A stretch of 64,000 nt of DNA, from contig PKXJ01000031.1 in the NCBI GenBank assembly GCA_003132305.1, positions 145,616 through 209,615 on the forward strand, written 5' to 3'. The notes under the pieces are model-generated. The model ran no database searches. It was not told the origin of the DNA and was given only the letters and a program-made list of their open reading frames with translations. Of this stretch, positions 20,373 to 41,910 are shown in pieces (the stretch's first letter is position 1; every line of letters starts with the position of its first letter). The DNA comes from Acidimicrobiaceae bacterium. GTDB lineage: Bacteria; Actinomycetota; Acidimicrobiia; Acidimicrobiales; RAAP-2. Made by a program: the position numbers and the translations under genes.

Positions 20373-20403
20373 GGGTGACGGTGGAACTGCTCAGCAGTCA
20401 CCC
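20373..20403 (-). terminator. Hairpin at the end of the adhesin gene
   Basis: GGGTGAC (20373-20379) pairs with GTCACCC (20397-20403). The loop holds a nested CTGCT/AGCAG palindrome. On the minus strand it follows the TAG stop directly. No U-run follows. It is a likely terminator or RNA-end stabiliser for the 670-codon gene. Confidence 0.5.
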
Positions 20404-25628: not shown

Positions 25629-25759
25629 CGTCACCCTCCTTTGATTCCCAGGGTTTTCAGAGTACACCCGCCGCTCATTAAACTGGGCTGGCATCTGGAG
25701 ATGTTGGTAACGGCGCTAGTCTCTAGATTCATTTCAATTTTCCCTAGCCCCGGGTGGTT

Positions 25760-26659
25760 ATGAACTCTTTCAGGAAACGTTCTCGTCGAGGGTTCGTGTT
25801 TGGTCTCGCGCATGCCACGTGGCGTCCGACCGTCGTCATCACGTTTGCCGTCGCGACCATCGCCTCATTGGTAGTGCAGTGGCCAACAATGGCGAATGCT
25901 CAAAGCGGTCCGAACCGGGTGATACTCGCTGATTTTAATGGCTCATTTCCGGTCGGTACACTCGACAGCGCGGAGCCTTCGGGATACAGCCCTCCCAGTA
26001 CGACCGCCCTAGCTGGTTACAAGTTGAACTACGTCGGCGACTTCACGGGGTCAGCCATTCCTCGGGGGTGGGACGTATTCAATGGAGTCCCAGGCGGCGA
26101 TCCGGGAGGTTTCTTTGGTGCTTCTCACGTGGTAGTCGCTAACGGTCTCTTGCAGCTCAATACCTTTCGGAATCCGGCGGCGGGGAATCGCTGGGTCACG
26201 GGCGGCTTGTGCCAATGCGGAGTTTCTCGTAAGTACGGCGCGTACTTCGTGCGCTCTCGACTGACCAGCGCCGGACCCAATGAAGTGGAGTTGCTCTGGC
26301 CCGCCACGAATAAGTGGCCACCCGAAATTGACTTCAACGAGACCGGCGGGTCGGCCACGTCGACGTCCACGTCAGTTCACTACGGAGTTACCAATCACAT
26401 CGTTAAAAGCCTGTTGAGGATCAACATGACCCTGTGGCATACCTGGGGAGTTATCTGGACACCCAAGTTCATTGTCTACACCGTTGACGGAAGGATCTGG
26501 GGGTCATTGAACGTCGCTTCAGAGATTCCCCGGGTGCGAATGACGCTCGACTTGGAGCAGATTCAACAGTGTCAAGAGGTACGTCAATGTCCCACTGCCC
26601 CAACCTCGATGCAGGTTAACTGGGTGGCTGAGTACGTGACGTCATCGACCCCTGGGTGA
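25760..26659 (+). CDS. Secreted GH16-family glycoside hydrolase-like protein (copy 1)
   Basis: 299 residues from ATG 25760 (the track start is a GTG two codons earlier). A twin-Arg-like basic N-terminus (SFRKRSRRGF) precedes a hydrophobic export segment. The GH16 beta-jelly-roll covers about residues 60-297. The catalytic ExDxxE box is WPPEIDFNE, with both acidic residues in place. Conserved family text includes GWDVFNGVPGGDP, WVTGGLCQCGVSRKYGAYFV and WHTWGVIWTP. Four copies of this domain occur in the window. Known GH16 enzymes cut beta-1,3/1,4-glucans or galactans; the substrate here is probably the cell's own or a neighbour's polysaccharide (inference). This copy is a bare catalytic domain. 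Confidence 0.85.
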   Translation: MNSFRKRSRRGFVFGLAHATWRPTVVITFAVATIASLVVQWPTMANAQSGPNRVILADFNGSFPVGTLDSAEPSGYSPPSTTALAGYKLNYVGDFTGSAIPRGWDVFNGVPGGDPGGFFGASHVVVANGLLQLNTFRNPAAGNRWVTGGLCQCGVSRKYGAYFVRSRLTSAGPNEVELLWPATNKWPPEIDFNETGGSATSTSTSVHYGVTNHIVKSLLRINMTLWHTWGVIWTPKFIVYTVDGRIWGSLNVASEIPRVRMTLDLEQIQQCQEVRQCPTAPTSMQVNWVAEYVTSSTPG

Positions 26660-26943: not shown

Positions 26944-27348
26944 ATGCAGATACTCGTGGGGACTGACGTCCAGCCCATTGAAGAGGTCGAGACGTCAATG
27001 CGACGGTTCGGGGTTCGCTATACGCGCCGACTCTTTACTGATATCGAACTTGAGAGTTGTGGCGAAAATCCTCTGACCGCAGCCAGCGGACTGGCTGGGC
27101 GATTTGCCGCGAAAGAAGCAGTACTGAAGATTCTTGACTCCCAAGATACCGTTCCGTCTTGGAGGTCGATTGAAGTCCAGCGCGCTAAGGGGGGGCGCCC
27201 GGAGATCGTGCTGCGTGGGGAGGCGGCCGAACTCGCTCGTCGCCAAGGTATTAGAGAGATGTCCTTGAGCCTCAGCCACGGTGGAGGCGTCGCCTTCGCG
27301 ACGGTGGTGGCGAGAGTGGCGCGGCGTCCGTCTAGGACGGACAGATGA
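26944..27348 (+). CDS. acpS: Holo-ACP synthase (4'-phosphopantetheinyl transferase, AcpS type)
   Basis: 134 residues from ATG 26944. The CoA/Mg-binding Asp8 is in VGTDVQPI, and Glu58 lies in GRFAAKEAVLK, the two metal ligands of AcpS. It transfers phosphopantetheine from CoA to a carrier protein serine. Its stop overlaps the start of an acyl carrier protein gene by 4 nt (ATGA), so the neighbouring ACP is its obvious target. It could instead be the only AcpS in the genome, but the coupling and the odd ACP make a dedicated enzyme likely. It heads a cassette with a double hydrolase and an ATP-grasp gene. Confidence 0.88.
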   Translation: MQILVGTDVQPIEEVETSMRRFGVRYTRRLFTDIELESCGENPLTAASGLAGRFAAKEAVLKILDSQDTVPSWRSIEVQRAKGGRPEIVLRGEAAELARRQGIREMSLSLSHGGGVAFATVVARVARRPSRTDR

Positions 27349-27605
27349 GCGACGCCGACGAAAAGATACGAAACGTGCTCGAAGAGCATGGACGCCTACC
27401 GGTGCCGGTGTCGACGTTAAACAATGGCGACGACCTGTATCAGAACGGGCTGTCGTCACACGCCAGCGTGAACGTCATGCTGGCCCTGGAAGACGAGTTC
27501 GACGTCGAGTTTCCGGATTCGCTCTTGAGAAAGGGTACGTTCCAGTCGGTGGCGGCGATTCGAGAGGCGCTGACGTCGTTAGGTGTCGTCATCGCTCCGG
27601 GCTAG
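27345..27605 (+). CDS. Acyl carrier protein, non-canonical
   Basis: 86 residues. The helical ACP fold is clear: DDLYQNGLSSHASVNVMLAL aligns with the canonical 'D-L-ADSLDTVELVMAL'. Ser38 is therefore the phosphopantetheine site, in SHA rather than the usual DSL. EDEFDVEFPDSLLRKGTF is the conserved helix II-III region. The start overlaps the acpS stop as ATGA. Such acyl/aminoacyl carriers next to ATP-grasp and hydrolase genes often belong to specialised assembly rather than fatty-acid synthesis (inference). Confidence 0.88.
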   Translation: MSDADEKIRNVLEEHGRLPVPVSTLNNGDDLYQNGLSSHASVNVMLALEDEFDVEFPDSLLRKGTFQSVAAIREALTSLGVVIAPG

Positions 27606-27729
27606 GCATCCCGCGCAAGAATGTTCTATCAAAACGTCGAACAGGAAACTTCGTAATGCTTGCTGACAACGCCAAAGAGAGCCGGAGACGACGGTCCCTC
27701 GAGCACAGGTTCCGTTCGGTGGGACCAAA

Positions 27730-29445
27730 GTGACAACGTCGGAGCACGCGGGCCCGCGGCTCGAACAGACGCTGTGGTTCGGGGCCGAGGAGCAGCCGCT
27801 CTTTGGCTGGCTGACCAGTCCTTCGAACGCACTGGCGCGAGGCGGGGTGCTCTTGGCGCCACCGATCGGACGCGAAGCATTCCCCGCGAGGCGCGTTCTG
27901 AAAAGCCTCGCGACATCCCTGGCCGCCCGGGGCTTCGTTACGCTCCGCTTCGACTATCACGGAACCGGTGACTCGAGTGGACACTTCGATGATCCGGATC
28001 GAGATCGGGCATGGGTCGACAGCGTGGCTGACGCGGCGGCGTTTCTGCGATCGCTCGGACTTTCGTCAATCTCTGCTGTCGGCATGAGATTCGGAGCCAC
28101 GCTCGTGGGTGCAGCGGCCGCTACACATGACCTGCGGTTCAAGTCGATGGTGTTGTGGGACCCCTGTGAATCGGGACGAAGTTATCTGCGCGAACTCACT
28201 GCACTCGAGGGTCTTCGTCGAGACGACTACGAGATTGACCCCGACGGATCAGTCGAAACCTCGGAGTTCGTTTTTACTCAACGAGCCGCGGTAGCGCTGC
28301 GCGCTCTGAGCTTGACCGACGTGAGTCCAAGACCACTCGCCGAGCGGGTCATGGTCGTCGAGCGGGGCGACCGCGTGATGTCCAAGAAACTGCGCCTTCG
28401 CCTCGATCGAGAGAAGGTTGATTGGGAGAGCACCTTCGAACAGGGCCCAATGATCGACGTCGAAGCGTTCTTCGCCGTTATGCCTGATCTAACCCTAAAT
28501 CGAATCGTCAACTGGTTAGGCGAGCCCTCCGACACGGTCGAACCGTTCGACGCCAGTGGCACGATGACGACCGCGGTGGTGTCGCGCGACTCTGGTGAGT
28601 ACACGGTGGAAGAGAGGAGCCTCGAACTCGGTCCGAGCGAGCTCTTCGGGGTGCTGAGCGAGCCGGTGGGTGACGCGCGTGGTCCCTGGATCGTGCTTTT
28701 GAACTCGGTGAACGACGACCACGTTGGGAGGGCGCGACTGTGGGTCGAACTTTCGCGACGGTGGGCTAGTTACGGTCTGCGCTGCGTGCGAGTCGACTTG
28801 AGCGGGTACGGGGACAGTCCTTCGCGGCTCGACGAACTCGCTCGCGTCGCGTACGACTCAAGATGGACGGGAGAGATGGTCGAAGTCGCACGGACCCTGA
28901 GTCCTGAGGACCCGTCGAACGTGGTCTTCATCGGCCTGTGCTCGGGTGCGTACGTCGCCATTGAGGGAGCGCTGGCGGTGCACGCGCGCGGGGTCTGCGC
29001 CATCAATCCTCCCGTATTCATCGACTATCTCCACGGCGTCGCTCGCCTGGAGGCGTCACGGCGAACGTCGGTGCGAGCATTGGGCCTTCACCTGAAGCGA
29101 TTGGCGCTGTCGCACCAGTGGGTTGCCGCTACGTTGGCCCGGTTCTCTCAGATGATGCTTCGTTCCGCTTACCCGACCGATGTGCTGAGCAAACTCGTCG
29201 ACGACGGGACCGACGTGCTCGTGCTTGCCAGCTTCGATGATTTGTCTCCTTGTCCCCGCACACCCTTCTTGCGCTCGATTGACTTGTGGCGAATGGGCAA
29301 GACGAAGAACTATCAGATTGAGTTCGTCCCCGGACTCGACCACGGGCTACACGGGGCGAAAGGCCGAGCTCGAGCCGTGTCCCTGCTCGACGGCAACGTT
29401 CTCGAGCGTTTTGCGCGCGCAGTATCCGGCACGGATCCGAAATGA
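27730..29445 (+). CDS. Fused double alpha/beta hydrolase (exosortase-associated hydrolase-like halves)
   Basis: 571 residues in two alpha/beta-hydrolase halves. Half 1 (about 20-260) has LAPPIGREAFP and RFDYHGTGDSSG, and its nucleophile elbow reads VGMRFGATL, with Arg where Ser would be expected. Half 2 (about 300-560) has RVDLSGYGDSPSR and the elbow IGLCSGAYVA with a Cys, and a C-terminal GLDHGLHG histidine. From memory the two elbows resemble the two hydrolases encoded in exosortase-A loci (GLRLGA and GLCDGA types), here joined in one chain. Half 2 could act through Cys/Ser, while half 1 may be structural. The start is GTG at 27730. No exosortase is in the window. Confidence 0.75.
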   Translation: MTTSEHAGPRLEQTLWFGAEEQPLFGWLTSPSNALARGGVLLAPPIGREAFPARRVLKSLATSLAARGFVTLRFDYHGTGDSSGHFDDPDRDRAWVDSVADAAAFLRSLGLSSISAVGMRFGATLVGAAAATHDLRFKSMVLWDPCESGRSYLRELTALEGLRRDDYEIDPDGSVETSEFVFTQRAAVALRALSLTDVSPRPLAERVMVVERGDRVMSKKLRLRLDREKVDWESTFEQGPMIDVEAFFAVMPDLTLNRIVNWLGEPSDTVEPFDASGTMTTAVVSRDSGEYTVEERSLELGPSELFGVLSEPVGDARGPWIVLLNSVNDDHVGRARLWVELSRRWASYGLRCVRVDLSGYGDSPSRLDELARVAYDSRWTGEMVEVARTLSPEDPSNVVFIGLCSGAYVAIEGALAVHARGVCAINPPVFIDYLHGVARLEASRRTSVRALGLHLKRLALSHQWVAATLARFSQMMLRSAYPTDVLSKLVDDGTDVLVLASFDDLSPCPRTPFLRSIDLWRMGKTKNYQIEFVPGLDHGLHGAKGRARAVSLLDGNVLERFARAVSGTDPK

Positions 29446-29518
29446 ATGTGCACGGACGATTAGTGGCTGGGAGTTCGCTCGAGCAAATGTTGCGGTCAGC
29501 GATGATTCGAACACGAGC

Positions 29519-30847
29519 ATGGACGCGGGGTCGACTTTGACGAACGAACGGACCCGAGGCGCGGCGACGGACACGGATAGTTTCACTTCTTCGAGTCCGA
29601 GGCCAAAGTTGGCGTTCGTGTATAACCCTCGCTCTTTTGGAGCGATGGCGCTCGCCGACGCGGCGAATGGGCTGTGTGACCTGGTCTGGGTCGTCGACAC
29701 TTCCCACCCCGAAGTGGAATCGATGACGAGGCTGTTGCGAAGATTCGGTCCTTGCGTCGACGTGGCGGGACTCTCGATCGACGAAGCAGCGTCGAAGATT
29801 GCGGAACACGCTCCCCAGGGAATACTCTCGTTGGCCGATGATTCACTTCTCTGGACGGCGGAGGTCGCGATACGTCTGGGACTGACCTTCCTCTCACCAG
29901 CGACCGCGGCGCGACTGACTGACAAACACGTCCAACGTCAAGCCTTGCGTGAAGGCGGACTCAGCGTGCCAAGGAGTTGGCTGGTTCGACACGGTGAGGA
30001 AGAAACGGCGTGGTCAACCATCGCGAGCGAGGCCTCATTCCCCGCAGTACTCAAGCCGCGCCTGGGCGCCGGAAGCCGTGACACCATCCCCATAACGACG
30101 CCCGACGAACTTCGCGCGCTCGGAGCGTTGCCCCGGTCTTTCGATGACCATCCCCGCGACTTTGTCCTCGAAGAGTTCATCCCGGATGCGACCTACCCAG
30201 CTGGAGGAGAGGGTTTTGCTGGCTACGTGTCGGTTGAGAGTTTCGTGAGCGACGGCCACGTAACCCACCTCGCGATTAACGGTCGAATGCCGCCGGCCCC
30301 ACCGTTTCGAGAGACTGGATTCTTCATCCCGAGCGCGCTCGACAACGAGCAGGAACGGGCCGTTCTCGAAGTGGCGAGTCGGGCACTCACGGCGATGGGC
30401 GTCGTCGTTGGCTGTCTGCATACCGAGATCAAGCTCACGCCCACGGGTCCGATCGTCATCGAGGTCAACGGTCGCATTGGCGGCGGAGTGCCGCAACTGC
30501 TCGCTTCGGCCAATGGTGTGCGGATGCTATCTCTCGCCATGCGCCTGGCGTTGGGCGAGGAGGTCGTTTGCGACGAGATGCCACCCTGCAATCGTCTGGC
30601 GTACTTGTTCTACGTTCAAGCCCCGGAGGAGCTTCGAACGATCACTGCAGTGGAGGGATTGAACGAGCTTCAAAAAGTTGCCGGAGTCGACGAGATCATT
30701 CTCAATCGTGGCCCGGGCCAGAACGTTGACTGGCGAGAGGGGAATCTCGGCTACGTGTTTTCGGTCGCGGGCACGGTCGCCGATCACGTCGAGTTGCGTC
30801 ACGTCTACGGCCTCGTCGCGTCGCTCGTACGCATCAGTGGTGATTAA
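29519..30847 (+). CDS. ATP-grasp ligase (copy A)
   Basis: 442 residues from ATG 29519; the track's start at 29225 overlaps the hydrolase gene and adds a non-homologous leader. An N-terminal pre-ATP-grasp domain (PKLAFVYNPRSFGAMALADA) precedes the ATP-grasp core: LTDKHVQRQALREGGL, FPAVLKPRLGAGSRDT (Lys), FVLEEFIPD and the metal-ligand box TEIKLTPTGPIVIEVNGRIG (Glu, Asn). It would ligate a carboxylate to an amine or thiol through an acyl-phosphate. It resembles the second ATP-grasp at 37926-39221 along its whole length. Its position after ACP and hydrolase genes suggests that it makes or uses an amino-acid conjugate, which is not proven. Confidence 0.85.
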   Translation: MDAGSTLTNERTRGAATDTDSFTSSSPRPKLAFVYNPRSFGAMALADAANGLCDLVWVVDTSHPEVESMTRLLRRFGPCVDVAGLSIDEAASKIAEHAPQGILSLADDSLLWTAEVAIRLGLTFLSPATAARLTDKHVQRQALREGGLSVPRSWLVRHGEEETAWSTIASEASFPAVLKPRLGAGSRDTIPITTPDELRALGALPRSFDDHPRDFVLEEFIPDATYPAGGEGFAGYVSVESFVSDGHVTHLAINGRMPPAPPFRETGFFIPSALDNEQERAVLEVASRALTAMGVVVGCLHTEIKLTPTGPIVIEVNGRIGGGVPQLLASANGVRMLSLAMRLALGEEVVCDEMPPCNRLAYLFYVQAPEELRTITAVEGLNELQKVAGVDEIILNRGPGQNVDWREGNLGYVFSVAGTVADHVELRHVYGLVASLVRISGD

Positions 30848-30945: not shown

Positions 30946-32712
30946 TCAACTTCCCCTTCGCCGAGGATCAGGTTGCGCGCCGCGGACCAGCGTCCCGGGA
31001 AGTTGACCCGTAGCGAGGCCGTCTTCGAAGGTCACCGACCCACGTTTAATGGTCCAGCGGTACCCCGACGCCGCCTGCAAGAGACGACGCCCACCCGCAG
31101 GGAGATCCGTGACGATCCTTGGCGACGCGCACGCCAATCCCTCGAAGTCGACGACGTTGAGATCGGCGAGTAGGCCCGGCGCGACGAGGCCCCGGTCGAA
31201 CCAACCGAAGTGTGACGCCGGGCGACGAGTCAGCTGGTGAATAACCGATTCAATCGGAATCCTCTCCTCGCTGTTTCGATCACGAGCCCATAGCGTCATG
31301 TAGCTCGTCGTCATGCTCGCGTCACAGATCGCGCCACAGTGCGCGCCGCCGTCCGAGAGTCCGAACATCGCCACGGGAGACGTGATCATCTCGCGGACCG
31401 CGTCGAGGTTACCGTCGACGAAGTTGAAGAGGGGCGTGTAGATAAGTTGACGCCCGTCAAGCTGCAGTTGCACGTCGTAGGCGTACTCGCGCGGATTGAG
31501 TCCCCTACGTCGCGCCGTGGCCCCGAGCGACTGGCCTCGGTCCAGGTCGTAGTTGACCGGATCGTCGAGGACGTACATGTCATCGAATCGACCGAAGAAA
31601 GCGTGCCCCGCGAAGGCGTCGTCCCCGGAGGTGAGCGTGGCGTGACCGTCGAGGATTCGTTGGCGAAGGGCGGGGTCTTGGAGCGCAGTGACCCGCTCCG
31701 CGAGTGGCAGATCGGCGACCAGACCGTAGGCCCGCGTCGGGGTGAACACGTTGGCTGACGCTTGGAGACCGAGGAGTACGCCGATCGGACGCGGGGCGAC
31801 TTGAGCCTTGACGTCCAGTCCCTCGGCCCCGAGCGACTCGGCGAGGGCGACGAGATCGCGCCATCGCTCGGGGGCTTCAAGGTCTTGTTGTACCGAGTAA
31901 CTCACCGGACGCTGGCTCGTGCGAGCGAATTCGGCGATAAGTGTGAACTCCTCGGCGGCGAAGTCGTCGTTAGTGGTGCGATAACTATCCGAGACGAGCT
32001 GGAAGACGCCCTTGCCGGTCGCTCGCATTACCGACGCCAGGGCTTGAAGTTCCGGCTCACGGGCTCGGAGCGTCCCGAGGTTCTCACCCCTAACGGTGCG
32101 GTGGCGCTCGGTACGCGACGTTGAGATTCCGAGCGCTCCCGCGTCGAGTCCCTGTTCGAGCAAGTGGGCCATCGTGGTCAGCTCACCCTCGTTGGGCTGT
32201 TCGCCGGGATCCGCTCCGCGCTCGCCCATAACGAAAGCGCGCAACGCGGCGTGCGGAAGGTGAGCGCCCACGTCGATCGTGCGCGCTTGGCGCTCGAGCG
32301 CGTCGAAATACTCGGTGAACGACTCCCAGTCCCAGCGCAGTCCTTCGTGCAGAGCGGTCCCGGGGATATCTTCAACCCCCTCCATCATCTCGATTAACTC
32401 GTCGTGGCGATCGGGGACGACGGGGGCGAACCCCACGCCGCAGTTACCCATTGCGACGCTCGTCACGCCGTGGTGCGAGGAGGGCGCGAGCCACGGATCC
32501 CACGTCGCTTGCCCGTCATAGTGGGTGTGGGGGTCCACGAACCCCGGGGTCACGAGCAGGCCCTCCGCGTCAATCTCGCGACGGCCCTGGAGAATATCGC
32601 CGCCAACCGCGACGATCCGATCGCCTTCGATGGCGACGTCGGCCCGGCGCGAAGGACCACCAGTGCCGTCGACCACGACGCCGTTTCGAATCACCAGATC
32701 TGCACTCACCAC
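30946..32712 (-). CDS. N-acyl-D-amino-acid deacylase/D-aminoacylase-like amidohydrolase
   Basis: 588 residues, full length for the family. Strand DLVIRNGVVVDGTGGPSRRA and GLLVTPGFVDPHTHYDGQAT open the amidohydrolase barrel, with His62 and His64 as metal ligands. The family-typical LGISTSRTERHR and SDGGAHCGAICDASM segments follow. This is the D-aminoacylase (N-acyl-D-amino acid hydrolase) group, in which a zinc site cleaves the acyl group from D-amino acids. Related members hydrolyse other N-acyl compounds, so the substrate is tentative. The start is GTG at 32712. It is 14 nt downstream of the aldo/keto reductase stop on the same strand. Both may serve degradation or tailoring of modified amino acids. 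Confidence 0.85.
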   Translation of the reverse strand: MVSADLVIRNGVVVDGTGGPSRRADVAIEGDRIVAVGGDILQGRREIDAEGLLVTPGFVDPHTHYDGQATWDPWLAPSSHHGVTSVAMGNCGVGFAPVVPDRHDELIEMMEGVEDIPGTALHEGLRWDWESFTEYFDALERQARTIDVGAHLPHAALRAFVMGERGADPGEQPNEGELTTMAHLLEQGLDAGALGISTSRTERHRTVRGENLGTLRAREPELQALASVMRATGKGVFQLVSDSYRTTNDDFAAEEFTLIAEFARTSQRPVSYSVQQDLEAPERWRDLVALAESLGAEGLDVKAQVAPRPIGVLLGLQASANVFTPTRAYGLVADLPLAERVTALQDPALRQRILDGHATLTSGDDAFAGHAFFGRFDDMYVLDDPVNYDLDRGQSLGATARRRGLNPREYAYDVQLQLDGRQLIYTPLFNFVDGNLDAVREMITSPVAMFGLSDGGAHCGAICDASMTTSYMTLWARDRNSEERIPIESVIHQLTRRPASHFGWFDRGLVAPGLLADLNVVDFEGLACASPRIVTDLPAGGRRLLQAASGYRWTIKRGSVTFEDGLATGQLPGTLVRGAQPDPRRRGS

Positions 32713-32726
32713 TGTTCCAACTTCGT

Positions 32727-33602
32727 TCAGCCGCCCATCGCCCAGCGGCGCAAGGGTTTACGCGCGTTGGTCAACTCTTGATACTGGACGTCGCTTAGCT
32801 CGATCTTCGCTGCGGCGCAGTTCTCTTCTAGGTGCTCGAGCGATTTGGTGCCGGGAATGGGCACCATCACCGAAGAGCGGCGAAGGATCCAAGCCAAGCA
32901 GACTTGCGAAACGGTGGCACCGAGTACGTGAGCGACCTCATCGAGGGGACCACCGGGCGCGGACAGTTTGCCACTGCCCAGTGGGAACCACGGTATGAAG
33001 CCGATTCCGTGCTGCTCGCAGTAGTCAACAACATCGTCCGCACTCCTTTGAGCGATGTTGTACTGATTCTGCACGCTGACGACAGGGACGATACGTTGGG
33101 CCGCTTCAATCTGCGCGACACTCACTTCGGAGAGTCCGACTTCGCGCACCTTGCCCTCGTCACGTAACGCCTTTAGTAGTTCGAACTGCTCGTCGGCTGG
33201 AACCTTGGCGTCGACTCGGTGAAGTTGAAAGAGGTCGATCCGTTCGACGCCGAGGCGACGAAGGCTGCCCTCACACTGTTGACGCAGGTAGTCCGGCCGT
33301 CCGCACTCTTCCCATTGGTCTGGCCCGGAACGGGTAAATCCCGCCTTGGTGGCGATTTTGAGCGTCTCGGGATACGGGTGGAGCGCCTCGTGGATGAGCT
33401 CTTCGGCCACGTTGGGTCCGTAGGAGTCCGCGGTGTCGAGGAAGTCGACGCCGAGCTCCACGGCGCGACGTAGGACCTGGAGGGAACCGGCGTGGTCACG
33501 TGGCGGGCCCCAGACGCCGCGGCCGGTGAGTTGCATCGTCCCGAATCCGAGCCGGTGCACGTTCAACGTGCCAATTTGTAGCGTGCCAGCGTCACCCGCC
33601 AT
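32727..33602 (-). CDS. Aldo/keto reductase
   Basis: 291 residues from ATG 33602, which follows GAGGAGG at 6 nt; the track start six codons earlier is less likely. A TIM-barrel AKR with the catalytic Asp/Tyr in DFLDTADSYGPNVAEE and Lys in ATKAGFTRSG. HRVD replaces the usual catalytic His segment (LHR). NADPH binding is via the C-terminal IPGTKSLEHLEEN. It reduces aldehydes or ketones in the cytoplasm; the substrate is unknown. The N-terminal 'RLGFGTMQLTGRGVW' is family-standard. The amidohydrolase follows on the same strand. Confidence 0.9.
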   Translation of the reverse strand: MAGDAGTLQIGTLNVHRLGFGTMQLTGRGVWGPPRDHAGSLQVLRRAVELGVDFLDTADSYGPNVAEELIHEALHPYPETLKIATKAGFTRSGPDQWEECGRPDYLRQQCEGSLRRLGVERIDLFQLHRVDAKVPADEQFELLKALRDEGKVREVGLSEVSVAQIEAAQRIVPVVSVQNQYNIAQRSADDVVDYCEQHGIGFIPWFPLGSGKLSAPGGPLDEVAHVLGATVSQVCLAWILRRSSVMVPIPGTKSLEHLEENCAAAKIELSDVQYQELTNARKPLRRWAMGG

Positions 33603-33830
33603 TACCCGCCTCCTCGTCAACGTTGTCCCTAGAGGCCCGCAAAGGTACGAAGCCTATATGGAGCGTCGGGCAATCTTATCTACACGCTGCGCGTAAATCG
33701 ACGGCCTAACCTGGTTTAACTGCGTGAGAGAAGGGACCGCCCCAAGCATGAAGTTGTGGTGTCATAGGGGTGCGGCGCGCTCGGCGAACGCGGGCGCGGG
33801 ACCCGTTCGGTGCCCTACTCGCGCCGTACG

Positions 33831-35645
33831 ATGATCGAATTTGCCATCGTCGGGCTCGGTTCTTGGGGCCTCTGCGTACTGGAGAGAGCGGTGAGCCGAG
33901 CCCGCACGACGACGACCTCCATCCGCCTTCATCTAGTAGAGCCGGGTCAACTGGGCGGCGGGGTCTACACCACAGAACAGCCCGACTACCTCGTGCTCAA
34001 TAACCCCTGCGGGCAGCTCTCGCTGTACGCGTCGCCCGACAGTGGCGAAGAACCGCCCTACGCCATGGGTCTCTACGAGTGGGCCGTCGAAAAGGGTTAT
34101 CGCTGGGTGGGATACGAATGCCGGATTGGACCTGACGGTGTATCGATTCTTCCGACCGACTACCTACCTCGACGGGTCCTCGGCGAATACCTGGCCTGGT
34201 TCTACGACACGCTCATCGACGACGCCCCGGCGAATCTGGAGATCGTTCGTCACTACGCCGCCGCCACCGACATTTCGCCAGAGATCGGAAGCCGAGAGAC
34301 GGTGTCGCTCGACAACGGGACGTCGATCAGCGTTGACCACGTGGTGCTCACGTCGGGACATACCTATAACGACGAACCCCTGAACAACGCGACCGACGTC
34401 CGCTATCGGCGACCGTATCCCGTTGAGTATTTCGACACGTCGGTGGCGCCCGGCGCCTCCATCGCCATCGCCGGAATGGGACTGGTGGGCTTCGATCTGC
34501 TCACGGCGCTCACCATCGGTCGTGGGGGCACCTACGAGGACGTCGGTGACCGCAAACACTACGTGCCAAGTGGCCTAGAGCCGGACATCTATCTCTACTC
34601 CAGATCTGGAGTTCCCTACTGCGCGAAGTCGGCTCATGGGGTGGATCCCACTGGTGACTATGAGCCCATCGTGTGCACGCCAGCCGCGTTCAAGGAACTG
34701 ACCAATCCGGTGGGCTCACCGCTTCGCCGGCGCGTGGATTTTCGTAACGATCTCCTCCCACTCCTCTACGCCGAGATGCAGGGGCGCTACTACACGCACG
34801 CCGCTTTCTTGAAGGGGAGCGCTTCGGCCGCTGCGTTGGTCCGAGAGCAACTGCGCGCTGGTTGGGCCGATGGTAACTTCAATCGGGTCGTCGAAGGGCT
34901 CGAGCCGATCTACGGCAGCTTCCATCCCGCCGACTACGTGTTCGCCGATGCGGGAGCGAGTTTTCAGTCCAGTCGTGACTACCAGTCCCACGTCCATGAG
35001 ATGATCGAAACCGACCTCGACGAGGCGCTCGCGGTCGGGGGCAGTCCGGTCAAGGCGGCCCTCGAGGTGACGCGCATCCTGCGGGACCAACTTCGCGAGA
35101 TCATAGAGTTCGGCGGGCTCTCTCTCGAGTCGTACATCGACTTCCAGTCCAACGTGCGCGGTCGAATCAATCGCCTCGAGGCTGGTCCGCCGCCGCTGCG
35201 CTCGCAACAACTCCTCGGTCTGCTCGACGCCGGTGTGGTCCGCGTCCCGTTTGGACCCCACCCCGACGTCACCGCGACCGCCCAAGGTACCGTCCTCATA
35301 AGATCCACGAGACTGGCGCACGCGACCGAGGCCACCGTCGACGTAGTGGTGCGCGGTCACCTGGATTTGCCGTCCCTGGCCCGATCGAGCTCGGCCCTGC
35401 TCAGTCGTATGTACGCCAAGGGACGTCTGACCCAGTTCAGTTACGGGGACACGACGGTGGGGAGCGTCGCGATCAGCGAAGACTTCCATCCCTACGACGC
35501 CGAGGGTCGACTTCAGTCGAACCTTTCGCTGCTCGGTGTCCTCACTGAAGGAGTGCGCTACTTCACGCACTATCTGCCCTCACCGCGCAGTCGATTGCGA
35601 GCCGTTTACGATGCGCAGCAGTGTGTGAAATCGATCATCGGATGA
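33831..35645 (+). CDS. FAD/NAD(P)-binding protein, large flavoenzyme of unknown reaction
   Basis: 604 residues from ATG 33831; a GTG seven codons upstream (33810) is possible. The N-terminal nucleotide-binding loop is FAIVGLGSWGLCVLE, followed by LHLVEPGQLGGGVYTTEQPD and LNNPCGQLSLY. VVLTSGHTYND and a second glycine-rich region SIAIAGMGLVGFDLL place it in the NAD_binding_9/FAD-NAD(P)-binding group. These are found as stand-alone proteins near amino-acid-tailoring genes, some acting as N- or C-hydroxylases. The reaction is unknown. It converges on the MetY-like gene 27 nt away. No ribosome site is obvious. Confidence 0.8.
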   Translation: MIEFAIVGLGSWGLCVLERAVSRARTTTTSIRLHLVEPGQLGGGVYTTEQPDYLVLNNPCGQLSLYASPDSGEEPPYAMGLYEWAVEKGYRWVGYECRIGPDGVSILPTDYLPRRVLGEYLAWFYDTLIDDAPANLEIVRHYAAATDISPEIGSRETVSLDNGTSISVDHVVLTSGHTYNDEPLNNATDVRYRRPYPVEYFDTSVAPGASIAIAGMGLVGFDLLTALTIGRGGTYEDVGDRKHYVPSGLEPDIYLYSRSGVPYCAKSAHGVDPTGDYEPIVCTPAAFKELTNPVGSPLRRRVDFRNDLLPLLYAEMQGRYYTHAAFLKGSASAAALVREQLRAGWADGNFNRVVEGLEPIYGSFHPADYVFADAGASFQSSRDYQSHVHEMIETDLDEALAVGGSPVKAALEVTRILRDQLREIIEFGGLSLESYIDFQSNVRGRINRLEAGPPPLRSQQLLGLLDAGVVRVPFGPHPDVTATAQGTVLIRSTRLAHATEATVDVVVRGHLDLPSLARSSSALLSRMYAKGRLTQFSYGDTTVGSVAISEDFHPYDAEGRLQSNLSLLGVLTEGVRYFTHYLPSPRSRLRAVYDAQQCVKSIIG

Positions 35646-35672: not shown

Positions 35673-36947
35673 TCATCCCGTCGCCCGAGCCAGTGCCTGA
35701 TCGATGTCCTCAATGAGATCGTCCACGTGCTCAAGCCCGATGGAGAGCCGAATGGCCTCGGGGCGCGTTCCGGTCGCCAGCAACTCTGACGCACTGAGTT
35801 GGCGATGCGTGGTCGAGGCCGGGTGGATTGCGAGCGACTTCGCGTCACCCAGATTGAGGAGTCGTTTGAAGAGTTGCAAGGAGTCAAAGAACGCCAGACC
35901 GGCGTCGTAGCCGCCGACGGCGCCGAAGGTGATGATCGAGGGCACGCGACCGTTCAGATAGCGCTGTACCAGGTGGTGGTAAGGATGATCAGCGAAACCG
36001 GCGAAACTTACCCACTCAACGCGCGCGTCGTCCCGGAGGTAGTCGGCGACGGCACGCGCGTTGGCTTCGTGACGCTCGAGGCGAACGGCCAACGTCTCTA
36101 GCCCCTGGAGAAATTGAAACGAGCTGAAGGGAGAAAGGGTGGCGCCGGTGTTGCGCAGTTGGATCGAACGAGCGCGCACCACGAACGCTCGCTCCGGGAA
36201 GTCGCGGGCGAAGACTACGTTGTGAAACGCTGGCTCGGGTTGATTGAAGGTAGGGAAACGCTCGGCGTGCTCGGTCCAAGGGAACGAGCCGCCGTCGATG
36301 ATCACGCCACCGAGCGTCGTGCCGTGTCCGCCAATGAATTTCGTCAGCGAGTGGATGACCACGTCGGCGCCATGGTGAATCGGCTTCAGCATCAATGGAG
36401 TGGCGACCGTGTTGTCGACGATGAGTGGCACCCCGGCGCGATGCGCGACGTCGGCGACCGCTTCTAAGTCCACCACGTTGCCCGCAGGATTACCGATGGA
36501 CTCTAAGAAGACGCACGCGGTGCGCTCGTCGATCAAGGCCGCGATGGAGTCGGCTCGGTCGTCGACGGCGAAGCGCGCGTCGATACCGAGGGTGGATAAC
36601 ACGTGGGCGAAGTACGTGTACGTGGCGCCGTAGAGCTGGGGCGCCACCACGATGTTCGAACCGGCGAGGGCGACGGTCAAGATCGAGTAACTCACGGCCG
36701 CCATGCCCGACGCCACGACCAGAGCGGCCGTGCCACCCTCCAAGGCCGCCATGCGTTTTTCGAGGACGTCGTTCGTGGGATTATTGATTCGGTTGTAGTG
36801 GAATCCGGGTATCGCGAGGTCCATGATCGCGTTGGCGTGTTCGGCGTCGATGAAGTCGTGGGCGACCGTCTGATAGATGGGCACCGCTACCGCCCGCGTG
36901 CTGTCGCCTTGGTAACCACCATGGATGGCGATGGTCTCGTCATGCAT
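35673..36947 (-). CDS. MetY-like PLP enzyme (O-acylhomoserine sulfhydrylase family)
   Basis: 424 residues, full length for O-acetylhomoserine aminocarboxypropyltransferase. The PLP Lys203 is in IHSLTKFIGGHGTTLGG, and Asp178 (VDNT) binds the pyridine nitrogen. YNRINNPTNDVLEKRMAALE and ASGMAA are family text. Family members replace the acyl group of O-acylhomoserine with sulfide or other nucleophiles, or make vinylglycine-type intermediates. As it follows a MetA-like gene by only 4 nt and an ATP-grasp gene before that, it may serve a special amino acid rather than methionine (inference). It is last in a three-gene operon. Confidence 0.88.
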   Translation of the reverse strand: MHDETIAIHGGYQGDSTRAVAVPIYQTVAHDFIDAEHANAIMDLAIPGFHYNRINNPTNDVLEKRMAALEGGTAALVVASGMAAVSYSILTVALAGSNIVVAPQLYGATYTYFAHVLSTLGIDARFAVDDRADSIAALIDERTACVFLESIGNPAGNVVDLEAVADVAHRAGVPLIVDNTVATPLMLKPIHHGADVVIHSLTKFIGGHGTTLGGVIIDGGSFPWTEHAERFPTFNQPEPAFHNVVFARDFPERAFVVRARSIQLRNTGATLSPFSSFQFLQGLETLAVRLERHEANARAVADYLRDDARVEWVSFAGFADHPYHHLVQRYLNGRVPSIITFGAVGGYDAGLAFFDSLQLFKRLLNLGDAKSLAIHPASTTHRQLSASELLATGTRPEAIRLSIGLEHVDDLIEDIDQALARATG

Positions 36948-36951
36948 TGAC

Positions 36952-37926
36952 TCAGTCCTTCCTCTTCGTCTCGCCAGCCAACCAGTTGGCGTAAAAACGT
37001 TGGGCCATCGAACGCCAGGGCCAGTTAGCCCGCGCGCTGACTTCTTCGAAGGGGTACGACGCTAGGGGTTCTAGTTCACGTCGGCCCCCGACAATCGTAC
37101 GGTGCAGCTGTTTGAGTTGCTCCCAGTCTTCGGGGGCCACGCAGTGATACGGCAGGGGAGGCAGGTCGTCGCGCTCGTGGCGCACGTAGCGCTCAGCGTC
37201 GCGCCTGTATTCGCGCAGCAGGCTGGCGGGCTCGTACTCGGGATGTCCCTGGACGATCACCAGATTGGACCCGTCAAACGCTCGGGTGGCCACGCTCCAT
37301 CCGACGGCGTCCGAACGTATCACGATCCGATAGCCGGCGTCGCGCAGAGCCTCTTCCGGAACGGTGTTGGTGCGCGAATGGGGTAGGAAAACCTCGGGCT
37401 CCAGCCCGGAACAAAGCGCGTTGGCAACGTCGACTTCCTGAAGAAAGAGGCCGGTACATTTTGCCGTCAGACGTTGTCGCTCCACGCCGTCGAAGACGGC
37501 GAGGGCCGCGTGAGCCGAGAGGCACGACAGAAGAATGGACGGAACACGCTCACGGGCCCACGAGAGGAGTTCGACGAGATCCTCCCAGTAGGGCACGTCG
37601 CGAATCTCGGGCTCTATCGGGTTCGATCCGGTCACGATCAAAAGGTCGGGCGGGTCGACGTAGGCGGCCGCGACGGGAGCGTACTGCTCGGTGATCCTCG
37701 TTGCGGTTCGCGCGCCCCTCGGCACGCCGAGCATCACGTAACGACGAACCTCGATGATGTCGGACCCCGAACCGGCTTCGAGCAGACCTAGGAACTGTCG
37801 CTCCGTCGCGTCGAAGGCGCCGTCGGGCATATTGTTCACGAACGCACAGGTCCAACGCGTAGCTCGGTCACTCGTCTCGGGCGGGTCGTGACGCGAGGAC
37901 GCGGCTGGGACGAGCCGCACGGTCAC
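36952..37926 (-). CDS. MetA-like homoserine O-acyltransferase
   Basis: 324 residues. The glutamine-amidotransferase-like fold of MetA/HTS is present. Nucleophile Cys135 (LLSCLSAHAAL), His228 and Glu230 (VQGHPEYEP) form the Cys-His-Glu triad, with spacing (93 and 2 residues) like that recalled for Bacillus MetA. The segment NNMPDGAFDATERQF matches 'NLMP-K--TE-Q'. It would activate homoserine, or a related hydroxy amino acid, as its O-acyl ester. The start is GTG at 37926, overlapping the ATP-grasp stop by one base; the MetY-like gene follows after 4 nt. The odd N-terminus and gene company make a non-methionine role plausible. Confidence 0.85.
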   Translation of the reverse strand: MTVRLVPAASSRHDPPETSDRATRWTCAFVNNMPDGAFDATERQFLGLLEAGSGSDIIEVRRYVMLGVPRGARTATRITEQYAPVAAAYVDPPDLLIVTGSNPIEPEIRDVPYWEDLVELLSWARERVPSILLSCLSAHAALAVFDGVERQRLTAKCTGLFLQEVDVANALCSGLEPEVFLPHSRTNTVPEEALRDAGYRIVIRSDAVGWSVATRAFDGSNLVIVQGHPEYEPASLLREYRRDAERYVRHERDDLPPLPYHCVAPEDWEQLKQLHRTIVGGRRELEPLASYPFEEVSARANWPWRSMAQRFYANWLAGETKRKD

Positions 37927-39221
37927 TAGTAGTGGCTCACGTTGGCGTAGGTGACCGTTACCTCTTGGTTGAGCAGTCGATTCACCGCTTGCAACTCGGT
38001 GTAGTCCCCGGCTGCACCGACCACCGCCATTATGTGGTTCCGTGACCCGTCCCTCCAGTCCAGGTCGGCCCCGGGTCCTTGGTGCACGGTGATCGTGTCG
38101 ACGCCGGGGTGGTCACTCACCGCGTCGAGGCCAGTGATCGCTGCCACCGTGGCCGAAACGGCCGGGGGTTGCAAGAAGAACCGGTAACCAATGCAATGGG
38201 TAGCGACGGGCGCGTCGAAGTGCATCGCTTCACCGAGGGCCACGCGCAAGGTCATCGCCACGAGCGGTACTCCCGCGGCCCGATCGAGCATCTCGGGCAC
38301 GCCGCCGCCGACGCGTCCGTTGACCTCGATTATTCGCGGACCGTCGGGCGTGAACTTGATCTCGGTGTGCAGACAGCCGGTGTGCACGCCGAGGGCTTCA
38401 ATCGCCGACGTGGCGAGTTCCAGTGCGGCCGATTGGTCGACGTCATCGAGATCGGCCGGAATAAAGAATCCGGTCTCACGAAAGTTCTCGGCCAGGGGGA
38501 AACGGCCGGTCAGGGCTAAGTGGCTGATGACGTTTTTCGAAACGACGCTCTCGACCGAGACGTAGGCGGCGTAGGGGTCGTTGGCTCGTGCCGGATCGTC
38601 CGCGAGGTATCCCTCGAGGACCATGTCCGGTCGATCGGGACCGATCGCTGTGAGGTACCGCGCCAAGTGTTCTCGGTCATTGACGAGAAAGGTGTAGCGA
38701 CTGCCCTGAGCCGAACGTGGTTTAAGGACCGCGGGCCAGCCCACGTCTAATTCGATGGAAGCGAGATCCTTCTCGGATTGGTCGGGCCCGATAACGTGAC
38801 ACGCGGGCGTGGCGAGACCGGCGTCGCTCAACACGCGACGCTGTTCGAACTTGTCGGTGAGCGCGACGGCCGTCTCGAAGGAGTGAAACGGCACCTGTAA
38901 AGCTTCGGCGACCCGCGCGTACGTCGACATGTTCGCGTCGAGGTACGTGACCAGCCCATCTGGTTCATAGGGCGAGGCGAGTTCCTTCAGGATTTGGTCG
39001 ACCCCGAGCCCGCTGACGTTCACGACTGGACCGAAGCGGTTGAGTAGTTCGGTGATCTGAAGCATCTCCGGCAGGGAACCGTCGATCAACCAGAGCAAGT
39101 CGCAGATGTTTGCGGCAGCTTCAGTCAACTGCATCACCGGTACGCAGCGCGGCCCGTAACCTACGGCGACAAGTGGCCGCTTCTCGCTGGACTTCGAATC
39201 GATCGTGCCCGTAGCCACCAA
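37926..39221 (-). CDS. ATP-grasp ligase (copy B)
   Basis: 431 residues. It is paralogous to copy A over its whole length. Shared text includes YVSVES, RETGFFIP, GCLHTEIK and IEVNGR(I/V)GGGVP. The ATP-grasp core has LTDKFEQRRVLSDAGL, WPAVLKPRSAQGSRYT and the metal ligands in TEIKFTPDGPRIIEVNGRVG. It probably joins two amino acids, or an amino acid and another acid, with ATP. It is first in an operon with the MetA-like and MetY-like genes, overlapping the former by one base. The upstream gap to the divergent LLM gene is about 100 nt and would hold both promoters. Confidence 0.87.
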   Translation of the reverse strand: MVATGTIDSKSSEKRPLVAVGYGPRCVPVMQLTEAAANICDLLWLIDGSLPEMLQITELLNRFGPVVNVSGLGVDQILKELASPYEPDGLVTYLDANMSTYARVAEALQVPFHSFETAVALTDKFEQRRVLSDAGLATPACHVIGPDQSEKDLASIELDVGWPAVLKPRSAQGSRYTFLVNDREHLARYLTAIGPDRPDMVLEGYLADDPARANDPYAAYVSVESVVSKNVISHLALTGRFPLAENFRETGFFIPADLDDVDQSAALELATSAIEALGVHTGCLHTEIKFTPDGPRIIEVNGRVGGGVPEMLDRAAGVPLVAMTLRVALGEAMHFDAPVATHCIGYRFFLQPPAVSATVAAITGLDAVSDHPGVDTITVHQGPGADLDWRDGSRNHIMAVVGAAGDYTELQAVNRLLNQEVTVTYANVSHY

Positions 39222-39327: not shown

Positions 39328-40506
39328 ATGCCAGTCGAAATAATCGGAATGGTGGGCACGAGAGACGCCTCTGAAATTAAGGGGCCTCTCGTCGACGGTC
39401 CAGTCGTCGACTGGATGGACGGCCCGGTGATCGACCCCGATTATCTGGTGGATATATCACGGGCCCACGACGACGGGGGCTTCGATCGCGTCCTCGTGGG
39501 CTACGGGGCGGTGGCCCCCGAAGGCTGGGCGGTGGCCGCGACGGTGTTGCACTGCACCAATCATCTAAAGGTAATGGTCGCGCACCGGCCCGGCTTCGTC
39601 CAGCCGGTGCTGCTCGCGCGCATGGCGGCCACCCTTGACCACCTCACGGGGGGCGGGCGGATCGGCATCCACTTCATCACCGGTGGCGACGAGGCTGATC
39701 AGCGTCGAGAGGGCGACTTCGTGCCCCACGACGCGCGCTACCGGCGCACCGGCGAGGTGATGGCGATCGCGCGGCGCCTCTGGAGCGAGGATGCCCCGTT
39801 TGATTTTGAAGGGGAGTTCTTTCGCTACGAAGGCGCCTTCAGTTCAGTGAAGCCGCTCACCCCGGGGGGCATCCCTCTCTACTTCGCGGGCGCTTCCGCG
39901 CCGGCCATTGAAGTCGGCGCCGCGCAAGCCGACATCTACGCCTTTTGGGGGGAGCCACGAGCGGCGGTGAAAGCTCGGAAGGATGCCATCGATCAAGTCG
40001 CCGCGAAGTACGGGCGCACTCTTCGCTACAGCATCTCGCTACGGCCGATCATCGCTGACACCGAAGCTGAGGCGTGGGAGAAGGCGGAGTGGATTGCCGA
40101 AAAGACGGAAGAGCGGATCGAACTGGCCAAGGAGAGAATGGCCGGTCATAAAGCTACCTACCAAGGTCTCGGCGGGGAACGAAACGCCACCTACGCGGTC
40201 AACCGCGACACGAGCGGTACCACGTCGGTCGGTCGCAAGCGATTGATCGAAATGTCTGCCGACCAAGACGTTTACGATGAGCGCCTCTGGATGAAGGTAG
40301 CGAAGCTGACGGGCGCGGCGGGCAACTCAACGGCGCTCGTTGGCACGTGCGAGCAAGTTGCCGAAGCGATGCTCCGCTACTACGACCTCGGCATCACCAC
40401 ACTGCTGCTCAAGGGATTCGACCCGCTGGTAGACGCGATCGACTTCGGCGAGCGTCTACTTCCCCTTGTTCGCGAGGGCGCGGCGCGACGTGACGCCAGT
40501 GCCTGA
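39328..40506 (+). CDS. LLM-class flavin-dependent monooxygenase, alkanesulfonate-type (SsuD-like)
   Basis: 392 residues from ATG 39328, preceded by GGAGGACGTGAAGGCA; the track start 24 codons earlier gives an unlikely leader. It is a TIM-barrel luciferase-like monooxygenase. VAHRPGFVQPVLLARMAATL, GGRIGIHFITGGDEADQRREG and PLYFAGASAPAIEVGA match SsuD, the FMNH2-dependent alkanesulfonate monooxygenase that releases sulfite. Some relatives act on other sulfur compounds. It could supply sulfite or sulfide sulfur for the MetY-like enzyme (inference). An FMN reductase partner is not in the window. The GT2 gene begins 15 nt after its stop. Confidence 0.87.
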   Translation: MPVEIIGMVGTRDASEIKGPLVDGPVVDWMDGPVIDPDYLVDISRAHDDGGFDRVLVGYGAVAPEGWAVAATVLHCTNHLKVMVAHRPGFVQPVLLARMAATLDHLTGGGRIGIHFITGGDEADQRREGDFVPHDARYRRTGEVMAIARRLWSEDAPFDFEGEFFRYEGAFSSVKPLTPGGIPLYFAGASAPAIEVGAAQADIYAFWGEPRAAVKARKDAIDQVAAKYGRTLRYSISLRPIIADTEAEAWEKAEWIAEKTEERIELAKERMAGHKATYQGLGGERNATYAVNRDTSGTTSVGRKRLIEMSADQDVYDERLWMKVAKLTGAAGNSTALVGTCEQVAEAMLRYYDLGITTLLLKGFDPLVDAIDFGERLLPLVREGAARRDASA

Positions 40507-40521: not shown

Positions 40522-41910
40522 GTGTCAATGTCGATGAAGAGGAGAACGGCAAAGAGTGGCGCGAGCGCGGCGTTCGCGCACTCAGCCGATCTCCCTGATT
40601 CACTGACCAGCTTGGTCAAGGGGGCGAGTCCCCTCAGAATCTTGACCGTGGACATTGATCAGCCACTCCCGGATCTTCGAGCCAACGACCACTACAGCGC
40701 CGCCTACGTTTTGCTGAGTCGAAAGGGGGTCTACCGAGGCGAAGTCGTCATCGACCTCTTGACCGACGCGGCGTCCATTCAAGATCATCTGCGAGAGGCG
40801 GTGACGCAACTCAAAGGAACGTTGACGGACGATTCCGTTCTGCTCGCGTTGTCCGACCGTGAACTCCCCCGTATTTCCATCGTCGTGCCAACCATTGTTG
40901 AAAGGATCGAGGAACTTAGGCGCTGCATCGCCAGCATCGAACAACTCGACTATCCGAACTTCGAGCTTCTACTGGTCGACAACCGCCGGGTTGTCCCGGG
41001 GCAAGATCCACTACCCGCTTTAGTGCACGGTCGAACGTGGTTACGCGTGATTCGTGAATCCAGATCCGGAATCTCTGCGGCTCGCAACGAAGGAGTAGCG
41101 AATGCCGACGGCGACGTGGTCGCCTTCACCGACGATGACGTTCGTGTCGACCCTCAATGGTTGCGCGCCCTGGGAACACGCCTAGCACTGAACCCAGATT
41201 TGGACGCGGTAACCGGTCTAATTCTTCCCGCTGAATTGGAGAGCCCCGCGCAGATCTGGTTCGAACGGTACTACAACGGATTCAACGGTCAGCGAACCTT
41301 TCTTCCTCTAATCCTGAAGGCCGATGGTCGAAGTAGTCGGATGTTGAGAGGTAGTCGAATCCTGGCACGTGATTTGACGGGCGCCGTGCGTGACAGTTTT
41401 CCGGTTTACGGTGCGGGCGCGTACGCGGCGGGTGCCAACATGGCATTTCGAACGTCGACACTCCGACGGATCGGTGGTTTCGACGTCGCACTCGGCACGG
41501 GCACGCCGGCGCGCGGGGGTGAGGATCTCGCCGCGATTATCACGGTCCTATGGACGCGTGGTTCGGTGGGTTACGAACCGACCGCGGTTGTTCACCACCG
41601 ACATCGAAGCGAGTACGTAGAGCTGTTGACTCTTATGGACGGTGAGGGTACGGGCTTTACTGCGATGCTCACGTCCCTCGTTCGCGATGATCCGCGCCAC
41701 GTGTTTGGCCTTAGCGTTCAGTTCCTGTTGTCGCTGAGGAAGTTAGTTTTTGAGCGGGCGCGAAGGCTCCGAGGACTGTCGACGGTGGGCCCGAAGGTTC
41801 GAGCACGAGACCCCCTCTTCCCTCCGGAGCTATCCAAGCGAGAGTTTCGCGCCTGCTTGCGGGGCCCCCGAGCGTACCTTCGGAGTCGTTCGGAGTGGAA
41901 TAGTTCCTAG
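40522..41910 (+). CDS. Glycosyltransferase family 2 with N-terminal beta-rich module
   Basis: 462 residues. Residues 38-110 form a module (LRILTVDIDQPLPDLRANDH; GEVVIDLLTD) also present in the second half of the 54319-56595 protein. The GT2 core starts at about 115: ISIVVPTIVERIEELRRCIA, LLLVDNRRVVPG, SGISAARNEGVA, AFTDDDVRVDPQWL (DxD) and TGTPARGGEDLA. The C-terminal 60 residues are basic. It is likely a membrane-associated transferase in surface-polysaccharide synthesis. GTG is at 40522 with ATG codons two and four codons later as alternatives. It starts the exopolysaccharide region and is 15 nt from the LLM gene. Confidence 0.85.
   Translation: MSMSMKRRTAKSGASAAFAHSADLPDSLTSLVKGASPLRILTVDIDQPLPDLRANDHYSAAYVLLSRKGVYRGEVVIDLLTDAASIQDHLREAVTQLKGTLTDDSVLLALSDRELPRISIVVPTIVERIEELRRCIASIEQLDYPNFELLLVDNRRVVPGQDPLPALVHGRTWLRVIRESRSGISAARNEGVANADGDVVAFTDDDVRVDPQWLRALGTRLALNPDLDAVTGLILPAELESPAQIWFERYYNGFNGQRTFLPLILKADGRSSRMLRGSRILARDLTGAVRDSFPVYGAGAYAAGANMAFRTSTLRRIGGFDVALGTGTPARGGEDLAAIITVLWTRGSVGYEPTAVVHHRHRSEYVELLTLMDGEGTGFTAMLTSLVRDDPRHVFGLSVQFLLSLRKLVFERARRLRGLSTVGPKVRARDPLFPPELSKREFRACLRGPRAYLRSRSEWNSS

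Follow-up and report, generated by a model that had tools for sequence, protein, structure and literature searches.

The aminoacyl carrier protein and its partner, the amino acid:[carrier protein] ligase, were reportedly described by Mocibob and colleagues in 2010; to our knowledge, aminoacyl carrier proteins have had known enzymes since that year and their purpose is not known. In the butirosin pathway, the side chain is assembled with the carrier BtrI, the ATP-grasp enzyme BtrJ and the flavin monooxygenase BtrO, and the amino acid is later given to a sugar. The D-cycloserine pathway (DcsE/DcsD/DcsG) proceeds through an O-acylated hydroxy amino acid, a PLP-dependent replacement with an N-O nucleophile and an ATP-grasp enzyme. 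In exosortase loci, the true hydrolase pair has an Arg in the nucleophile box of one half and a Cys in that of the other. The L-aspartate N-hydroxylase of structure 8cp2 has a substrate site lined by Arg266, Arg409, Arg412, Asn413 and Arg416, and the N413E exchange disables it on aspartate (PMC10404684). For SerRS-like loci, Iyer et al. predicted the coupling of an amino acid to a surface sugar through the amino group of that sugar (PMC2922099).

The DNA analysed here, called the window, is a stretch of 64,000 nucleotides that forms part of contig C18 of an actinobacterial genome (G000; 2.9 Mb, 60% GC), whose nearest named relatives are soil Acidimicrobiaceae genomes. The original prediction described a plus-strand run of four genes, the first two overlapping by 4 nt, as a cassette of a holo-ACP synthase (AcpS), a carrier protein (ACP), a fused double hydrolase (HYD) and an ATP-grasp ligase (GRASP1). 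Its coordinates and families are right: HMM searches confirm the identity of all four genes, the AcpS/ACP overlap of 4 nt reads ATGA, and ACP and HYD are separated by 124 nt. The in-frame ATG at 29519 is the most likely start of GRASP1, since the longer ORF from 29225 partly overlaps HYD. The four genes do not, however, form a unit of their own. The stable set in relatives is AcpS-ACP-HYD with an adenylation enzyme, a CreE-like N-hydroxylase (FADNAD), MetA, MetY and another ATP-grasp enzyme, and by comparison of loci the cassette appears as one arm of a larger conserved cluster spanning about 26.9-40.5 kb (Table 1). This larger cluster and its signature enzymes are what is new. In the open literature searched, we found no direct description of the cluster, of exosortase hydrolases with an ACP, or of a cycloserine analogy.

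Table 1. Features of the cluster and its conserved neighbours in the window.
Feature	Position	Strand	Evidence
Secreted GH16-type glycosidase, conserved neighbour	25754..26659	+	PF00722; adjoins cluster also in L071, L074
AcpS, dedicated holo-ACP synthase	26944..27348	+	Start ATG; PF01648 46 bits; TIGR00556 above cut-off
ACP, aminoacyl-carrier-protein family	27345..27605	+	NF005480/PRK07081 102 bits, cut-off 72
Predicted phosphopantetheine serine of ACP, Ser38 in GLSS*HAS	27456..27458	+	Alignment with DSL motif
HYD, fused hydr2-like + hydr1-like alpha/beta-hydrolase	27730..29445	+	TIGR03101, TIGR03100 matches
HYD key residues	Arg120 28087-28089; Cys404 28939-28941; His538 29341-29343	+	Motifs over 21 fused proteins
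GRASP1, ATP-grasp amino-acid ligase	29519..30847	+	PF13535 38 bits; PDB 3vot 2e-16
Amidohydrolase (Amidohydro_3), Acidimicrobiaceae cluster member	30946..32712	-	62-80% identity in most Acidimicrobiaceae cluster loci
Aldo-keto reductase (AKR), cluster member in several Acidimicrobiaceae	32727..33620	-	Profile match, loci comparison
FADNAD, N-hydroxylating monooxygenase related to L-aspartate N-hydroxylase (CreE/FzmM family)	33831..35645	+	PDB 8cp2 1.7e-54
MetY-like PLP enzyme (O-acylhomoserine gamma-replacement)	35673..36947	-	TIGR01326 559 bits, cut-off 495
MetA-like homoserine O-acyltransferase	36952..37926	-	PF04204 167 bits; Cys, His-x-Glu motifs kept
GRASP2, ATP-grasp ligase, orthologue stable across cluster	37926..39221	-	Profile match, tree, loci comparison
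LLM flavin monooxygenase, alkanesulfonate-monooxygenase-like, Acidimicrobiaceae cluster member	39328..40506	+	PF00296 209 bits; PDB 7jv3 5e-54; 75-88% in relatives
Glycosyltransferase (GT2, MftF-like), probable acceptor pathway	40522..41910	+	61% identity in L073

HMM searches place the ACP far above the fatty-acid ACP models (NF005480/PRK07081, 102.2 bits, curated cut-off 72), and among PDB sequences it best matches 4h2w_C, an aminoacyl carrier protein, and Agrobacterium Atu2571 2jq4 (2e-17, compared with 4e-4 for the E. coli ACP). It is thus, by family, an aminoacyl carrier protein and a predicted amino-acid carrier, of the same family as the ACP in the loci for the aminoacyl carrier protein and its ligase in Bradyrhizobium and Agrobacterium (Atu2571-2574). 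At the phosphopantetheine serine it reads S-S38-H-A where ordinary ACPs have D-S-L. The presence of this motif agrees with the original prediction; its supposed oddity is not borne out, as relatives carry (S/T)SHAS, or SHSS/SHGS. GLSSHAS is common to relatives in Priestia, in Mycobacterium and in other Actinobacteria, which marks it as a family trait, and it is the rule in the PRK07081 family. The window genome encodes two other ACP-like proteins and one other AcpS, so that the cassette AcpS/ACP is not the general fatty-acid pair; on these extra copies and the family match, a general fatty-acid ACP was rejected.

The neighbours of the ACP in relatives are amino-acid enzymes, either an amino acid--[carrier protein] ligase (NF005479, above cut-off) or an amino-acid adenylation enzyme. 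On Azospirillum and Priestia plasmids, the same ACP type lies beside an acyl-CoA-dehydrogenase-like protein and an amino acid--[acyl-carrier-protein] ligase, and in Priestia the locus further includes AcpS, an ATP-grasp protein and an alpha/beta-hydrolase. The Priestia megaterium plasmid row (L068:8613-17160) reads AcpS, ACP, acyl-CoA-dehydrogenase-like gene, carrier ligase, transporter, ATP-grasp, alpha/beta-hydrolase, alanine permease and alanine racemase. Like the aminoacyl-carrier loci, relatives in the order have the same ACP, acyl-CoA-dehydrogenase-like enzyme and NF005479 ligase, here together with HYD, whereas in the window genome the ligases are of the ATP-grasp type, accompanied by a distant adenylation enzyme and by MetA, MetY and FADNAD. 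A search of this genome, which is 95% complete, for a SerRS-like carrier ligase gave no match, in a search without a positive control. The ACP is found in 7 of 7 genomes with HYD and in 1 of 9 without it (Fisher P = 0.001, a guide only, because the 16 checked genomes of the order are mutually related). This association is not due to chance, and the varied gene orders, fusions and independent lineages weigh more than the P value.

The original prediction likened the HYD halves to the hydrolase pair of exosortase-A loci, fused here and lacking an exosortase, and both points are confirmed. HYD matches TIGR03101 (4.5e-27, 95.2 bits) and TIGR03100 (4e-18, 65.7 bits) below the curated cut-offs of 202.75 and 168.45, and PF09721 has no match in the window genome, even beyond the window, or in four other genomes with HYD (G173, G172, G188 and G290). 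The adenylation enzyme and both halves of HYD match the exosortase-A set of ligase, hydrolase 1 and hydrolase 2 (TIGR03098, TIGR03100 and TIGR03101), but all three scores are below the curated cut-offs, the halves are fused, and the five genomes tested show no exosortase. In the C-half box G-x-C-x-G, Cys404 is kept in 21 of 21 fused proteins, and His538 in all 20 that reach that far; at the serine-nucleophile position of the N-half box, 19 of the 21 have an Arg. Judged by these motifs, HYD most simply looks like a Cys-dependent acyltransferase or thioesterase joined to a non-catalytic (pseudo-hydrolase) partner. Catalysis is deduced from the motifs, as the AlphaFold model (pTM 0.79, pLDDT 73, input of only six sequences) cannot prove a triad. 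Foldseek searches with the model return alpha/beta-hydrolases throughout the best matches, all generic esterases, and give no closer functional hint.

Of 198 genomes of the order, 11 encode relatives of HYD, which are also found scattered through genomes of the phylum, and AcpS and ACP adjoin HYD repeatedly in their neighbourhoods. In G173, HYD and AcpS are separated by a sulfotransferase-family gene (L063:1838-2689). A split hydrolase pair in locus L056 carries the same two motifs, one in an Arg half and one in a Cys half, and the hydr2-type half follows an NRPS A-T unit, where a thioesterase would usually be found. The ORF concerned (L056:5226-6581) runs from the end of an NRPS adenylation domain through a carrier domain into the hydr2-type hydrolase; the hydr1-type half is a gene of its own beside it, along with an ACP and genes for an acyl-CoA-dehydrogenase-like protein and a further adenylation enzyme.

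The HYD neighbourhood of G173 contains close homologues (63-78%) of the window genes downstream of the cassette. To find further loci, FADNAD was used as query instead of HYD, since an HYD-only contig scan gave no match and the HYD alignment is too diverse for patterns. In the named genomes, this search found 20 loci from Acidimicrobiaceae and Mycobacterium, including M. paraense, Candidatus M. methanotrophicum and strains E787, E796 and UM_CSW. Sixteen loci span at least 10 kb; all of them have MetY, 14 have MetA and 14 the adenylation enzyme, 13 have the ACP (counting L078, whose ACP sits in the overlapping L051) and 12 have GRASP2; L088, L079 and L078, which are the same contigs as G173, G290 and G553, were each counted once. 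Three sizeable loci (L075, L082 and L085) gave no ACP, and only 7 of the 16 show HYD, in part because contigs end. The gene orders of the Acidimicrobiaceae and Mycobacterium clusters differ, which points to functional linkage rather than a block of shared ancestry. The closest relative (L073) reads AcpS-ACP-HYD-formyltransferase-adenylation enzyme-amidohydrolase-AKR-FADNAD-MetY, and a deeper relative (G015) has a minimal set of AcpS, ACP, adenylation enzyme, FADNAD-MetA and MetY within 6.5 kb. Homologues of the cassette genes do occur together in other genomes, with GRASP1 as the least stable member. In the Mycobacterium versions (L076:8838-10001, L079:6709-8097), FADNAD has an added GntG-like PLP enzyme upstream, and MetY is joined by an F390-synthetase-like adenylating enzyme.

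FADNAD is homologous to the aspartate N-hydroxylase CreE/FzmM (8cp2) over its full length (1.7e-54, positions 3-587 of 604) and shares most anion-binding residues, keeping Arg409/412/416 and Asn62. It differs in having Asp in place of Asn413 and Lys in place of Arg266 in 19 of 19 proteins, and in being fused to MetA in two genomes. Given the effect of N413E, the residues at 413 and 266 make a substrate other than aspartate likely; FADNAD is thus a relative of the aspartate N-hydroxylase and likely performs amino-acid N-oxygenation on another substrate. The FADNAD-MetA single polypeptides, found in G105 and G015, suggest that N-oxygenation and homoserine acylation very probably share one pathway. 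Fusions of about 1000 aa are followed by MetY and glycosyltransferase genes (L098:228-3386, L099:4343-7267). An assignment of the acyl donor of MetA from its Glu/Gly111 residue was dropped, as the site varies.

GRASP1 is, as predicted, an amino-acid-type ATP-grasp enzyme: its match to PF13535 (ATP-grasp_4, 38 bits) exceeds the Pfam cut-off of 27, and the nearest PDB sequence is the L-amino acid ligase 3vot. The LAL_C2 C-terminal domain scores 20.6 bits in GRASP1, under the cut-off of 29.4. GRASP1 was rejected as a fixed cassette member, because it forms no supported clade with other GRASP1-like proteins and because in L073 the stretch from HYD to the amidohydrolase is filled by other genes, a formyltransferase and the adenylation enzyme. 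In the window genome, the adenylation enzyme is found intact at 19601-21133 of contig C21 (72% identical), in a region that is a partly decayed second copy of the cluster. This region (G000:C21 about 19.2-22.5 kb; L097:9249-12480) holds a second MetA (65%), the intact adenylation enzyme and fragments of GRASP1 (74%) and GRASP2 (68%).

The adenylation enzyme scores 306 bits against TIGR01733, a model of amino-acid adenylation domains, just under the cut-off of 317, and also matches TIGR03098 below cut-off. Its pocket, read by alignment as D-G-A/S/G-S-A-G-R-I-A/V, hardly varies over 15 genomes. Within this predicted pocket, Asp235 indicates an alpha-amino acid substrate and Arg322 suggests an anionic side chain. 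The view that Arg322 is always present was dropped, since G015 has Leu at position 322. In G173, a close adenylation enzyme was not found. The ACP of the window may be loaded in trans by the C21 adenylation enzyme, or by GRASP1.

Glycosyltransferase, Wzz-type, flippase-type, sugar-nucleotide and undecaprenyl-sugar-transferase genes lie beside HYD or FADNAD in several families, and the sugar-related genes of the window comprise the GH16-type gene, a GDP-fucose synthase and glycosyltransferases. Such neighbours do not prove a glycan acceptor. By analogy with the proposal of Iyer et al., the acceptor would most likely be a surface-polysaccharide sugar. The original prediction had envisaged an acyl or aminoacyl intermediate tethered to a carrier and then ligated, which might decorate the neighbouring polysaccharide or build a small molecule. 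The dedicated carrier, its aminoacyl family and the frequency of polysaccharide genes beside the carrier/hydrolase module agree with this, while the cassette alone is not the whole unit.

We favor, as a reading whose chances are evenly balanced, that the cassette serves a larger cluster as its carrier and transfer arm. The cluster would make an unusual, homoserine-derived and probably N-oxygenated amino acid and attach it, most likely to a surface-polysaccharide sugar. The carrier and transfer roles are well supported. Family membership, gene linkage, motif conservation and gene fusions are established by comparison; we infer the product and the acceptor, as well as every substrate and the ACP-loading enzyme in the window genome. 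AcpS would turn the ACP into its holo form. Homoserine would be O-acylated by MetA and the acyl group at the gamma carbon then replaced by MetY, with FADNAD N-oxygenating either the amino acid or the incoming nucleophile. The amino acid would be activated and placed on the ACP thiol, in the majority of genomes by the stand-alone adenylation enzyme (here on contig C21), or possibly by GRASP1 where that enzyme is not local. GRASP2 would form an amide bond, and HYD would pass the aminoacyl group from the carrier to Cys404 and on to the acceptor, its N-half, lacking a nucleophile, serving as a docking or structural partner. A narrower version, in which a new N-oxygenated homoserine-derived amino acid (aminooxy/N-hydroxy type, with cycloserine-like logic) is put on exopolysaccharide via the aminoacyl carrier and the Cys-dependent HYD in Acidimicrobiaceae and environmental mycobacteria, is speculative and unlikely to hold in every part.

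In its working logic (ATP-grasp ligase, carrier, LLM-type monooxygenase), the cluster would resemble butirosin side-chain assembly; no BtrK-type decarboxylase and no BtrG/BtrH were identified in the cluster. It may likewise follow the logic of the D-cycloserine pathway, likened by the described chemistry. That pathway uses serine and beta-replacement, whereas the cluster would use homoserine, gamma-replacement, an FAD enzyme as presumed N-O source and a carrier protein. These loci tie an aminoacyl carrier to defined partner enzymes, among them a likely conserved-Cys transfer enzyme and a MetA-fused N-oxygenase, and the purpose of aminoacyl carriers thereby becomes directly testable. The cluster is also present in Mycobacterium species, for which the open literature searched yielded no description of it.

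With the same carrier and chemistry, the product could instead be released as a small molecule (a hydroxylamine/hydroxamate-type metabolite or chelator), with HYD acting as a thioesterase. A stand-alone adenylation enzyme, an N-hydroxylase and two ATP-grasp ligases are typical of such clusters, and the TE-like position of the hydr2 half in L056 fits as well. However, unrelated families repeatedly have glycosyltransferase, chain-length and flippase genes next to the carrier/hydrolase module, and a dedicated exporter was not identified, which leaves release as a possible but somewhat unlikely outcome.

We consider it quite improbable that two independent modules merely adjoin, one of aminoacyl carrier and hydrolase serving the polysaccharide, the other of MetA, MetY, FADNAD and LLM serving sulfur or methionine metabolism. 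HYD and ACP do occur without FADNAD in G172, G188, G004, G567, G473 and others, and MetA, MetY and the alkanesulfonate-type monooxygenase could serve sulfur assimilation. Yet the ACP accompanies FADNAD in 13 of the 16 loci, across Acidimicrobiaceae and Mycobacterium and in differing gene orders, and G015 packs AcpS-ACP-adenylation enzyme-FADNAD/MetA-MetY into 6.5 kb. An N-hydroxylase fused to MetA also has no role in methionine synthesis. Moreover, G000, G290 and G553 encode other full-length MetY-family enzymes besides that of the cluster, so that the cluster MetY is not simply the methionine enzyme there and methionine synthesis is disfavoured as the role of the cluster; G173, where the cluster MetY is the only full-length match, is the exception. 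Finally, a fatty-acyl or lipid-modifying cassette of an ordinary ACP and esterases, to which the generic similarity of the ACP and the alpha/beta-hydrolases might point, is disfavoured as highly improbable by the ACP family, the other ACPs in the genome, the amino-acid enzymes among the partners and the Cys that replaces the Ser nucleophile.

Elsewhere in the window, positions 20403-22415 encode a secreted protein with List_Bact repeats and an OmpA domain, and positions 22727-23374 an RstR/Xre-type HTH protein that carries a long VPEVPDVPE-type repeat and ends in a lysine-rich tail.
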